From: Kaistella polysaccharea
GTDB taxonomy: Bacteria; Bacteroidota; Bacteroidia; Flavobacteriales; Weeksellaceae
DNA length: 64,000 nucleotides
Direction: 5' to 3'
Assembly (NCBI RefSeq): GCF_020410745.1
Contig: NZ_CP084528.1
Location: forward strand, 2,480,001-2,544,000
Below are positions 49,841 to 53,905 of this stretch, piece after piece. How positions within the stretch are numbered: position 1 is the stretch's first letter; each line of letters begins with the position of its first letter. The position numbers were made by a program, and so were the translations under genes. The notes beneath the pieces are model-generated. The model worked only from the letters and a program-made list of their open reading frames with translations, had not been told where the DNA came from and did not search any database.

Positions 49841-49877
49841 GCGATCCTATTTTCTTTTAATTATTTTTAAAAAATAG

Positions 49878-49899
49878 TAAAGGACTGTATTGTCTTTTA
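49878..49899. promoter_or_regulatory. Operator-like palindrome before the Rrf2 gene
   Basis: TAAAGGAC-N6-GTCTTTTA, a 22-bp imperfect palindrome overlapping the -33 TTG (49890-49892). The same 22-bp pattern recurs at 50388-50409 before the cbb3 oxidase gene, so it is a candidate binding site of the Rrf2 protein. Confidence 0.65.
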
Positions 49900-49920
49900 T
49901 TATATTTTTATTTACATTTG
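49890..49920 (+). promoter_or_regulatory. Promoter of the Rrf2 gene
   Basis: TTG at 49890-49892, a 20-bp spacer, then TACATTTG at 49913-49920. The operator palindrome covers the -33 element, as expected for a repressed promoter. Confidence 0.6.
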
Positions 49921-49937
49921 TTCTTAGGAAAAGGAAT

Positions 49938-50372
49938 ATGTTTTCAAAATCATGTGAGTACGGGATTCGAGCGTCTATTTACGTCGCAAAAAATTCCCTT
50001 AAAAATCGGAAAGTAAGCTTGAAAGAAGTTGCGAAACACACCGATTCACCACCTGCATTTATGGCAAAAATATTACAGAAATTAACCAGGACCGAAATTT
50101 TATCTTCCTTCAAAGGTCCAACCGGTGGTTTTTCGGTAGCCTTAGATAATTTAGAAAAAATATCACTTTTGAGTATCGTTTTGGCAATGGATGGAAATGG
50201 AATTTTTGAAGACTGCACTTTAGGTCTTAGAAAATGTGATGTTGAAAAACCCTGTCCTTTGCATTTTAAATTTATACAAATTCGGGATGAAATGCGGGAA
50301 ACCTTAGAATCTACATCATTACGATCTTTGGCTGAACAGGTTTCAGATGGAGTAACCTTTTTAAAACGTTAG
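49938..50372 (+). CDS. Rrf2-family transcriptional regulator, likely Fe-S sensing
   Basis: A 144-residue regulator. The winged HTH has MFSKSCEYGIRASIYVAKNS and a recognition part with SPPAFMAKILQKLTR; GPTGGFSVALD is the wing. Three cysteines lie as C-x6-C-x5-C (EDCTLGLRKC, then DVEKPC), like the cluster ligands of NsrR and IscR, so an iron-sulfur cluster sensing NO or redox state is probable. The frame extends upstream to 49890, but ATG 49938 gives the standard start and fits the promoter. It is followed by the cbb3 operon with a matching operator. Confidence 0.9.
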   Translation: MFSKSCEYGIRASIYVAKNSLKNRKVSLKEVAKHTDSPPAFMAKILQKLTRTEILSSFKGPTGGFSVALDNLEKISLLSIVLAMDGNGIFEDCTLGLRKCDVEKPCPLHFKFIQIRDEMRETLESTSLRSLAEQVSDGVTFLKR

Positions 50373-50387
50373 TTTTTTTTACAATAA

Positions 50388-50409
50388 TAAAGGACAATTT
50401 TATCTTTTA
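50388..50409. promoter_or_regulatory. Operator-like palindrome before ccoN
   Basis: TAAAGGAC-N6-ATCTTTTA, the same arrangement as at 49878. A -7-like TATCTTTT (50401-50408) lies inside it, 11 bp before the ATG. Confidence 0.6.
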
Positions 50410-50419
50410 ATAATTCTAT

Positions 50420-52171
50420 ATGAATAATTCAATTTTTGGTGAATCGGGGATTCAGATTACACTAGTGCTTATTTTGCTTCCGGTCTTGGTGGGTCTGCTG
50501 ATTGCCATCGTTAAGACCTACGGAACGTATAAGGATTTAAAAGCACGCCGTAAACTGGGCGAATTTCAAAAGAAAATTCAGAGCATGTCTCCGGATGAAC
50601 TGCAGATTTACGAACGCCAGGAAAAGGCACAATCCTACCAAGTTCCGGATAACGAATTATCTGGGACCCAACCGCCTTCTGATGAAAAAGGAATTATTTA
50701 TAATGTAAACAGAGTTGAAGAACTGCGTGTAATTCCTTCCAAAAAAAGTTTTGTTCCCCAAAAATACATCTCACCACAACTTGCCAATTTAATTTTGTAT
50801 TTTATTGGATTTTCCATCTTCTGGCTATTATTCGGAACCACCGTGGGCGAATATTTGGGAATTAAATTTGTAGCGCCTGATGCCGATCATGTAAGTTGGC
50901 TGAGTTTCGGGCGGCTTCGTCCTGTTCATACCAATATGGTTTTTTGGGGTTGGGCCTCATTTGCAATGGTTGGACTGGCTTATTATGTAATCCCGCGTGT
51001 AAGCAATGTAGGAATACACAATCTGAAAATTGGGTACTATTCATTAATATTAATGAATTCTGCAGTGCTGTTGGGAACAATTTCCCTTATGGCTGGGATT
51101 AATAATGGCGGAGGTGAATACAGAGAATATATCTGGCCGATCATGGCACTTTTTGCTGTTGGTATTGTGCTGTCACTCTACAATTTTTTAATGACTGTTG
51201 CAAAACGAGCGACAAAAGAAATTTATGTTTCGAACTGGTATATTATTTCTGCGATGATGTATGTAGTGGTGATTTTAGTTGTCGCTTACATTCCTTTCTG
51301 GCAAGATGGTCTTGCGGAAACAATCATTCAGGGATACTACATGCACCAAGGAGTTGGGATGTGGTTTATGTTCCTTTGTCTGGGTTTGATGTATTATTTC
51401 CTGCCGCAACAATTAAACAAACCAATTTATTCCTACAGTTTAGGAATCTTAGCTTTTTGGACTCAAATTTTATTTTATACTTTAATCGGTAGTCATCACT
51501 TTATTTTTAGCGCCATTCCTTGGTGGATGCAAACTGTTGCGATCGTTGCCAGTGTTGGGATGGTAATTCCTGTTGTTGCTGGTACGGCAAATTTCCTTTT
51601 AACATTTAATGGTGCCTGGTATCAGCTGAAAACAAGTTATACTTTACCGTTTTATCTCATCTCTATTATTTTCTATTTCACGGGCTCAATGCAGGGCACG
51701 GTAGAAGCATTTCGATTTACCAATTTAATTTGGCACTTCACCGATTTTACCGTTGCGCATTCCCACTTAACCATGTATGGAATTATCACCTTCATGTTGT
51801 GGGCCTTTATTTATACGTTGGTTCCAAGAATCACAGGAAAAGAACCACCAAAACTTTCCGTCGGAATTCATTTCTGGATGGCTTTAATTGGATTGATCTT
51901 CTATACTTTCTCCTTGATGATTGGTTCTACACAACGCGGTTTGATGTGGATGGACAGTAAACCATTTATAGAAAGTGTGAAAATGATGGCGCCTTTCTGG
52001 CTTTGGAGAGCGATCGGTGGTACAATGATGTGGATTTCTCATTTTGTTTTTGCCTATAACTTCTACAAAATGATTAACAAGAGGAAAGAAGTGTTTATTC
52101 CTACAACGCCTGCCGAAATTTTAGAAGCAAAACGACAACTTAAAAACACGGAATATATTCCTACAAAATAA
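50420..52171 (+). CDS. ccoN: cbb3-type oxidase catalytic subunit (CcoN-like)
   Basis: A 583-residue heme-copper oxidase subunit with about 13 helices. H170 (VHTNM) is a heme ligand, H309 (YMHQGVGMW) and H359/H360 (IGSHH) are CuB ligands, and AHSHLTMYG holds further heme ligands. The cbb3 catalytic tyrosine is kept: Y353 lies 44 residues after H309, the spacing of the cross-linked H207/Y251 pair in the Pseudomonas enzyme, so this is an oxygen reductase and not a nitric oxide reductase. It has an extra N-terminal helix and soluble stretch (residues 1-115). It heads a four-gene operon behind the Rrf2 operator. Confidence 0.9.
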   Translation: MNNSIFGESGIQITLVLILLPVLVGLLIAIVKTYGTYKDLKARRKLGEFQKKIQSMSPDELQIYERQEKAQSYQVPDNELSGTQPPSDEKGIIYNVNRVEELRVIPSKKSFVPQKYISPQLANLILYFIGFSIFWLLFGTTVGEYLGIKFVAPDADHVSWLSFGRLRPVHTNMVFWGWASFAMVGLAYYVIPRVSNVGIHNLKIGYYSLILMNSAVLLGTISLMAGINNGGGEYREYIWPIMALFAVGIVLSLYNFLMTVAKRATKEIYVSNWYIISAMMYVVVILVVAYIPFWQDGLAETIIQGYYMHQGVGMWFMFLCLGLMYYFLPQQLNKPIYSYSLGILAFWTQILFYTLIGSHHFIFSAIPWWMQTVAIVASVGMVIPVVAGTANFLLTFNGAWYQLKTSYTLPFYLISIIFYFTGSMQGTVEAFRFTNLIWHFTDFTVAHSHLTMYGIITFMLWAFIYTLVPRITGKEPPKLSVGIHFWMALIGLIFYTFSLMIGSTQRGLMWMDSKPFIESVKMMAPFWLWRAIGGTMMWISHFVFAYNFYKMINKRKEVFIPTTPAEILEAKRQLKNTEYIPTK

Positions 52172-52180
52172 ATTAGAATA

Positions 52181-53173
52181 ATGGAATTTTATAACAATCA
52201 TAAAGTCCTCTTCTGGACCGCCTTAGTTTTCTTTCTGTTTCTTACTTTACAGATTGCGATACTGCCGGCGTTTACCAATCAAACCGTGTATAAACCTTTG
52301 CCAGATGCGAAGCCACTTACCAAAGATGAGGCTGCAGGAAAAGCAATTTATGTAGAAAATGGGTGTATCGCCTGCCACACGCAACAGGTTCGTGAGGTAG
52401 AGATGGATAAAGTTTTCGGGTCACGGCCGAGTATTCCTGCGGATTATGCTCAAAATCATCGGATGGATGTTTGGCGTAACACTGCAAACCTATTGGGTTC
52501 CGAAAGAACTGGTCCAGATTTAACAGCGATTGGGGAAAGACAACCGAGTTCTGATTGGCATTTACTGCATTTGTATCAGCCGCGTGCTGTAGTAAAAGAA
52601 TCTATAATGCCGTCTTATTCATTTCTTTTTGAAGAAAAAGATTACTTACAAAAAGGGGATATTGAAGTAAAAGTTCCACCTGAATTTTTAAAAGACAAAT
52701 TCAAAAAAATTGTGCCGACTAGAAAAGCCCTTCAACTCGTGGCTTATTTACAGAGCTTAAAACAAACCAAATTACCTGAAGGCGTAAAACCACCAGATTT
52801 TCTCTATAAAAAAGAAATTAAGAAAACAGCAGGTGGTGGCGGAGCAGCAGATTTACCAGATGGTGGAGAACTCTACACCGCGAATTGCGCCAGCTGCCAC
52901 CAGGCAAGTGGAGAAGGTTTACCAGGAGCATTCCCACCTTTGAAAGGGAGTCCAATTGTGGCGAGTGACGATATTGATGTATATGTGAATATCATCATGG
53001 GAGGTTACACTGGAAGACCTGGTTATGGGCCAATGCCGGCGGTGGGAAAAAATGCAAACTTCACCGCTGAAATTGTAACTGCAATCATGAATCACGAACG
53101 GTCATCTTGGGGAAATAATGCCAAACCAGTCAAACTGGAAGATGTAAAAGCAGTGATGGATAAAATTAAATAA
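52181..53173 (+). CDS. CcoO-like diheme cytochrome c with CcoP-like second domain
   Basis: A 330-residue protein with one N-terminal helix (about 9-29). The first cytochrome has CIACH (C62 to H66), then GSERTGPDLTAIGER and the Met ligand in SIMPSYSFLF, which are CcoO marks. The second has CASCH (C236 to H240) with the Met of YGPMPAVG near 284, a CcoP-like monoheme domain. Thus CcoO and a cytochrome c are fused. It lies 10 bp after ccoN and would shuttle electrons to it from the periplasm. Confidence 0.88.
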   Translation: MEFYNNHKVLFWTALVFFLFLTLQIAILPAFTNQTVYKPLPDAKPLTKDEAAGKAIYVENGCIACHTQQVREVEMDKVFGSRPSIPADYAQNHRMDVWRNTANLLGSERTGPDLTAIGERQPSSDWHLLHLYQPRAVVKESIMPSYSFLFEEKDYLQKGDIEVKVPPEFLKDKFKKIVPTRKALQLVAYLQSLKQTKLPEGVKPPDFLYKKEIKKTAGGGGAADLPDGGELYTANCASCHQASGEGLPGAFPPLKGSPIVASDDIDVYVNIIMGGYTGRPGYGPMPAVGKNANFTAEIVTAIMNHERSSWGNNAKPVKLEDVKAVMDKIK

Positions 53174-53207: not shown

Positions 53208-53468
53208 ATGAAAAATTTTAAAAATACCGCAATTATTTTCTTTCTCTTTGCTATGAATTTTGCCTTCGCTTGTGAGGCCTGCAAATTACAGCAACCTGCT
53301 GTTACGAGAGATTTCACGCATGGCGTTGGTCCTCGTGGGCAATTTGACTGGATAATTGTCGCGGTGATTGCCGTAATCACAGTTTATACATTAATTTATT
53401 CCGTTAAATATTTGGTGAAACCAGGGGAGACGGAAAAAGATCATGTTAAAAATTCTATTTTAAATTAA
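53208..53468 (+). CDS. Small membrane protein of the cbb3 cluster
   Basis: An 86-residue protein with a signal-like N-terminus and a CxxC in CEACK at about residue 23, then a helix at about 45-66. The short size and place suggest a CcoQ-like or assembly role, but CcoQ is not a sequence match that I can show. It has no CxxCH, so it does not hold heme c. It follows the CcoO-like gene by 34 bp. Confidence 0.72.
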   Translation: MKNFKNTAIIFFLFAMNFAFACEACKLQQPAVTRDFTHGVGPRGQFDWIIVAVIAVITVYTLIYSVKYLVKPGETEKDHVKNSILN

Positions 53469-53485: not shown

Positions 53486-53905
53486 ATGACTAAAGATAAA
53501 AGTTCTGTTTTTCTCTTCCTTGATGATGAAGTTACGCCTTTGGCAGAGCTTGAAACACCCATTGTTTTTGATTTCGATACATCGAAACTTACTGATGGTG
53601 AGCACATTTTGAAAATAATCAGTAAATCTACACTAGGCAGAGAAGGTATACGGAAAATACAGTTTACTGTAAAAAACGGACCTTCCATAAGTGTGGAAGG
53701 ATTGAAAGAAAATGATATTGTAGATGGCGTTTTACCGTTGATGATTAACGCCTATGACAAAGGCAATCAGAAGAGTTTTGTGATCGAAGGAAGCGAAACT
53801 CCACAGACCATTCCCGTTTGGATCTGGATTATTATCATCTTGTTCGCGGGCTGGGCCGCATATTATGGCATTACTTACTTTTATAAGTTACCTGGAATAA
53901 TGTAA
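53486..53905 (+). CDS. Membrane-anchored protein of the cbb3 cluster, function unknown
   Basis: A 139-residue protein. Residues 1-110 are soluble (VFLFLDDEVTPLAELETPIV, Ig-like or cytochrome-assembly-like strands), with one C-terminal helix at about 112-132. It starts 17 bp after the small CEACK protein and ends just before a terminator, so it closes the operon. I do not recognise the family; an assembly or stabilising role is an inference from position only. Confidence 0.72.
   Translation: MTKDKSSVFLFLDDEVTPLAELETPIVFDFDTSKLTDGEHILKIISKSTLGREGIRKIQFTVKNGPSISVEGLKENDIVDGVLPLMINAYDKGNQKSFVIEGSETPQTIPVWIWIIIILFAGWAAYYGITYFYKLPGIM

Follow-up and report, generated by a model that had tools for sequence, protein, structure and literature searches.

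Nitric oxide (NO) stops respiration at its final step. In Neisseria the Rrf2 repressor NsrR controls both AniA, a nitrite reductase, and NorB. NsrR is also described as an NO-sensing repressor in Streptomyces coelicolor and in enterobacteria, its marks being a [4Fe-4S] cluster and loss of DNA binding on exposure to NO. In the S. coelicolor protein Asp8 provides the fourth ligand of the cluster (PMC5411485). RsrR of Streptomyces venezuelae is by comparison a [2Fe-2S] redox sensor with a large regulon that has no tie to nitrosative stress genes (PMC5015018). NO sensing in the Bacteroidota is poorly described. HcpR is the sole regulator given for this phylum in an NO-regulon paper, and in the open-access literature that we searched we found no link between an Rrf2 or NsrR protein and cbb3 oxidase in Bacteroidota. 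NO sensing in these organisms would be accounted for by a conserved regulon of the NsrR type whose operator is defined.

The locus described here lies in a window of 64,000 nucleotides, i.e. the whole stretch of DNA that was analysed, and coordinates refer to this window with all features on the forward strand. The gene order is ribonucleotide reductase alpha, DUF72, rrf2 (49938..50372), ccoN2 (50420..52171), a ccoO gene fused to a cytochrome c domain (ccoO/c; 52181..53173, 330 aa), two genes for small membrane-anchored proteins, and then unrelated genes. Among named relatives the closest are species of Kaistella, in which the regulator is 94% identical. The arrangement resembles that of Neisseria in that a putative Rrf2 repressor is linked to nitrite reduction and NO removal, but the linked target here is a C-type oxidase and not an NO reductase (NOR). 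We propose, with a probability of about two in three, that the locus encodes an NsrR-like, self-repressing switch that responds to NO or a related Fe-S or redox signal and controls an accessory oxidase.

A preliminary description of this DNA reported two 22-bp palindromes with the same six-nucleotide spacer, one before rrf2 and one before ccoN, and both are present. Operator 1 (49878..49899) is upstream of rrf2, 38 bp before the ATG at 49938, and has the sequence TAAAGGACTGTATTGTCTTTTA, i.e. TAAAGGAC-N6-GTCTTTTA. Operator 2 (50388..50409; TAAAGGACAATTTTATCTTTTA) lies between rrf2 and ccoN2, 10 bp before the ATG of the latter at 50420. The arms are longer than the 22 bp would indicate, extending to about 11-N6-11 bp with pairing of 9/11 and 8/11 positions; those of operator 1 cover approximately 49875-49902.

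The genome (2,687,097 bases in one contig) contains exactly two matches to TAAAGGAC-N6-RTCYTTTA, and these are operators 1 and 2; allowing one mismatch gave no further match in the whole genome. For the slightly narrower pattern TAAAGGAC-N6-RTCTTTTA, 0.01 exact matches per genome are expected under a first-order Markov model. The looser TAAARGAY-N6-RTCYTTTA has two other matches in the genome at one mismatch or fewer, both within reading frames. The number of one-mismatch palindromes is close to background (4, compared with 5 in a reversed-pattern control), so we give weight only to the exact matches. Looser scans allowing two or three mismatches gave many matches, but no more of them than the reversed-pattern control did, and we did not consider them further.

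Both operators are conserved in the genus. Among 36 genomes ccoN2 is present in 20, and rrf2 adjoins it in 19 of these; the two operators, their exact N6 spacing and their flanks are kept while the surrounding sequence diverges. In the genus scan all 14 exact sites among the matches listed are located at rrf2 or ccoN2. The right arm of operator 2 has been lost in two close relatives. In G018 (locus L130) rrf2 is a remnant or pseudogene and the spacer of operator 2 is five bases (N5), and in G029 (locus L135) ccoN2 contains stops and the spacer is four bases (N4).

The comparison was extended to 80 Rrf2 loci from the phylum, 24 of which are beside ccoN2 and 56 elsewhere. A palindrome with the core GAY-N6-RTC is found upstream of rrf2 in 61 of the 80 loci, compared with 0.7 in dinucleotide shuffles. 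Operator 2 recurs across families approximately 4-12 bp from the start of ccoN in most loci where there is a gap between rrf2 and ccoN, and is absent where the two genes overlap. The outer arms depend on lineage, being AAAGGA, TCGGA, AGTGGA or TTCCGA. In 15 loci chosen by hand as divergent and bearing both sites, the resemblance between the arms of operators 1 and 2 is 0.68 within loci compared with 0.44 between loci (p = 5e-5, or 5.5e-4 without the Kaistella/Chryseobacterium type), where shared ancestry is reduced by the choice of loci but, as in the other phylum-wide tests, not fully removed. The arms of the two operators thus change together within a locus, so that one factor probably binds both. 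This covariation is the best computational sign that the linked Rrf2 protein probably reads both operators.

The linkage of the genes points the same way. An independent draw across the class gave 12 ccoN2 loci outside the genome studied here, and in 11 of them rrf2 is the gene directly upstream. It could be argued that the palindromes are bound by some other factor, or that the match at operator 2 arose by chance in AT-rich sequence; the element is indeed AT-rich, its one-mismatch copies are at background level and operator 2 has decayed in the two relatives noted above. However, the restriction of exact copies to two places, the matched change of the arms across families and the linkage to rrf2 make this most improbable.

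We note that operator 1 coincides with a promoter. The -33 TTG of a Bacteroidota-type rrf2 promoter (49890..49892) falls inside operator 1, as originally proposed, and the -7 element TACATTTG (49913..49920) follows 20 bp after the TTG. A recognisable rrf2 promoter is present in 33 of the 80 Rrf2 loci, and in every one of these the -33 TTG occupies one fixed position in the operator, with the -7 element (TAnnTTTG) 18-21 bp beyond it, usually 20. Operator 2 is different. It had been suggested to cover a -7-like element before ccoN, and TATCTTTT is present at 50401-50408, but judged by its sequence this is a poor match and there is no good -33, so that no convincing promoter is seen at operator 2 and a separate ccoN promoter there is a weak candidate. 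It is no less likely that ccoN is transcribed by read-through from the rrf2 promoter, which is probably the source of most of its transcripts.

The regulator is a protein of 144 aa that scores above the cut-offs for the Rrf2 superfamily, with 88.4 bits for PF02082 (cut-off 30) and 83.5 for TIGR00738 (cut-off 73.3). It falls far below the NCBIfam equivalog cut-offs for NsrR (31.8 bits, cut-off 182) and IscR (50.5 bits, cut-off 207.55), and likewise does not reach those for RirA and CymR. From these scores the protein is classed as NsrR-like only, and not as NsrR proper. The cysteine motif C-x6-C-x5-C that had been remarked upon is present as C93-x6-C100-x5-C106. Across 40 Rrf2 homologs C93, C100, C106, C6, E7 and H109 are invariant, whereas residue 39 varies widely. 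The profile match to 5n07 begins at residue 7 of the query and residue 8 of the chain, which aligns Glu7 with Asp8 of S. coelicolor NsrR. The protein therefore has three cysteine residues together with a carboxylate at the position of the Asp8 ligand.

In these respects, and in its Rrf2 fold, probable autoregulation, palindromic operator of ~22-28 bp and small NO-response regulon in its relatives, the system is similar to NsrR of S. coelicolor and the enterobacteria. It differs from NsrR in the C-x6-C-x5-C spacing, in an identity of only ~16-19% to NsrR structures, in the GAY-N6-RTC core of the operator and in having an oxidase as its predicted target. The AlphaFold model of the protein (pLDDT 87.5) finds RsrR first when searched using Foldseek, with CymR, NsrR and IscR structures among the other matches. 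RsrR is also the top sequence-profile match, at 26% identity, and has inverted-repeat operators, but the Rrf2 regulon here looks tiny and relatives of the regulator stand beside NO genes. Since RsrR is as close as NsrR or closer by both profile and fold, structure is no arbiter between NO and redox as the signal.

Genes for RIC, qNOR, truncated globin or hemerythrin adjoin 49 of the 56 Rrf2 relatives that are not beside ccoN2, where the globin label was assigned by us from the sequence, the globin genes having matched no Pfam or NCBIfam model. Several distant ccoN2 operons run on into genes for globin, RIC and hemerythrin. Three congeners that lack ccoN2 have an rrf2-nirK-ric-qnorB cluster, and the operator before it shows a single base change. 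The regulators linked to ccoN2 do not form one group on the tree, the strongly supported branches requiring at least five changes of label. As a group, therefore, these Rrf2 proteins have the neighbours of an NO-metabolism regulon; in the window the oxidase operon is the sole linked target. In some Rrf2 operons a tryptophan 2,3-dioxygenase-like gene recurs beside globin and RIC genes (L068:4297-5202, where it matches PF03301; L201:11563-12465; L204:4344-5258).

The signal was initially given as either NO or redox state. The presence of RIC, qNOR and nirK genes beside relatives of the regulator leads us to favour NO over a redox or Fe-S signal, a preference drawn from gene neighbourhood alone and short of proof. 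With the same repressor and operators, the signal could instead be redox poise, O2 or Fe-S status, as in RsrR or IscR. The oxidase would then function in respiration at high affinity or under stress, and the RIC genes nearby would repair general Fe-S damage. RsrR heads both the profile and the structural matches, general Fe-S stress would suit the RIC and hemerythrin genes, and the cysteine motif, the invariant Glu7 and His109 leave the type of cluster unsettled. Yet dedicated NO genes, qNOR and nirK, share clusters with similar operators, and ccoN2 is confined to congeners bearing nirK (20 of 32, compared with 0 of 4 lacking it; p = 0.03 in a small sample uncorrected for kinship). We regard a redox signal as less likely than NO. 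A test of whether ccoN2 takes the place of qNOR within the genus was not significant (p = 0.30).

The genome itself has three Rrf2 paralogs, a nirK gene scoring above its family cut-off and two RIC-type genes, one of which is a fusion that scores below the RIC cut-off. A second type of operator, TTCGGAY/TTAAGAY-N6-RTCC, lies immediately upstream of nirK, of ric and of the rrf2 belonging to the RIC-fusion gene. The sequence TTCGGATAACTTTGTCCTAT, an operator with the same core, is located 28 bp before nirK (L189:1501-1520, at 1.431 Mb). A search for heme-copper enzymes in this genome found a canonical cbb3 and CcoN2 only, with neither qNOR nor any other NOR.

The target of the putative repressor was described as a cbb3 oxidase operon. 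The subunits are of the C-type, CcoN and CcoO, but the enzyme is a divergent second oxidase and not the canonical cbb3. The canonical operon (ccoNO-ccoP, ccoG, fixH) is elsewhere, at 1.705 Mb of this genome, and a canonical ccoNO (~760 aa) is found in 36 of 36 genomes of the genus; CcoN2 (583 aa) scores 255 bits against the ccoN equivalog cut-off of 583. We therefore rejected identity with canonical cbb3. CcoN2 is nonetheless recognisable as a CcoN-type COX1 protein, retaining the heme and CuB ligands His170, 309, 359, 360, 447 and 449 and the active-site Tyr353, and is followed by a CcoO-type subunit. It differs from the canonical subunit in an N-terminal extension, in the fusion of ccoO to cytochrome c with no separate CcoP, and in three residues. 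In 36 of 36 CcoN2 proteins (that of the window and 35 homologs) Glu323 is replaced by Gln (Gln425 in the window), His243 by Ala and Ser240 by Gly; in the canonical ccoNO of this genome Glu, His and Ser are all retained.

An active-site tyrosine is a mark of O2 reductases. Its retention in CcoN2 favours O2 reduction, and sets the protein apart from the NO reductases NorB, qNOR and cNOR. The solved structures closest to CcoN2 are those of cbb3, and the match to NorB is much weaker. The Glu has been called mandatory in authentic cbb3, and a separate 'unknown group' of heme-copper oxidases (Muntyan et al. 2015) has been mentioned (PMC5492636); the CcoN2 enzymes may be this group.

The enzyme might alternatively consume NO, being an NO reductase derived from cbb3, or a reductase of both NO and O2, that is induced by NO and does not mainly respire O2. 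This genome bears nirK and lacks NOR, the positions of Glu323, His243 and Ser240 are changed in every CcoN2 examined, and cbb3 enzymes can reduce NO weakly, an activity that may become relevant where there is no NOR (PMC8780969). With Tyr353 kept, and no gain of NOR-like residues identified, we regard such a function as unlikely. We also consider it improbable that, as a broader generalization, a phylum-wide, NO-induced C-type branch without the Glu constitutes an NO reductase or NO-proof oxidase that is governed by a dedicated NsrR-like switch and replaces NOR in nirK-bearing Bacteroidota.

The mechanism that we favour remains that of a repressor releasing an accessory oxidase. Autoregulation together with control of a terminal oxidase was the model first put forward, and the conserved, covarying operators, the recurrent linkage of rrf2 to ccoN and the changed spacing of operator 2 in the two congeners with a broken rrf2 or ccoN2 speak for it, save that the oxidase is not canonical cbb3. 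The Rrf2 protein would be a homodimeric Fe-S-cluster repressor of an NsrR-like Bacteroidota group. Bound at operator 1 the dimer would mask the -33 element of the rrf2 promoter, and at operator 2 it could block ccoN2 either as a roadblock or by occluding a second, weak promoter. The bound protein would in this way silence rrf2, ccoN2, ccoO/c and the two small genes downstream. Damage to the cluster by NO, or by closely related Fe-S or redox stress, would release the repressor and allow the accessory C-type oxidase to be made. This would occur in a cell where NO could be generated from nitrite by NirK, where there is no NO reductase and where the main cbb3 may be inhibited by NO or nitrite. An oxidase in the putative regulon that is changed around its active site, and is carried by organisms with nirK and no NOR, bears directly on the release of NO and N2O by partial denitrifiers.

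The two small genes that follow ccoO/c encode a one-helix protein of 86 aa (53208..53468) and a protein of 139 aa with a C-terminal membrane helix (53486..53905). Neither has a match in Pfam or NCBIfam. The former is the next gene in many ccoN2 operons and the latter is conserved in such operons, and in other families both directly follow ccoO/c with 40-68% identity. These membrane-anchored proteins are probable overlooked subunits or assembly factors of the oxidase.

Elsewhere in the same genome, at 2.094 Mb (L115:6200-10500), a second Rrf2 gene, whose operator is GAC-N6-GTC, heads a gene cluster that encodes a fusion of DUF2249 to hemerythrin, a membrane protein of 421 aa that matches nothing in Pfam, and a PaaD-like protein. 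This appears to be a further cluster for NO or Fe-S stress.
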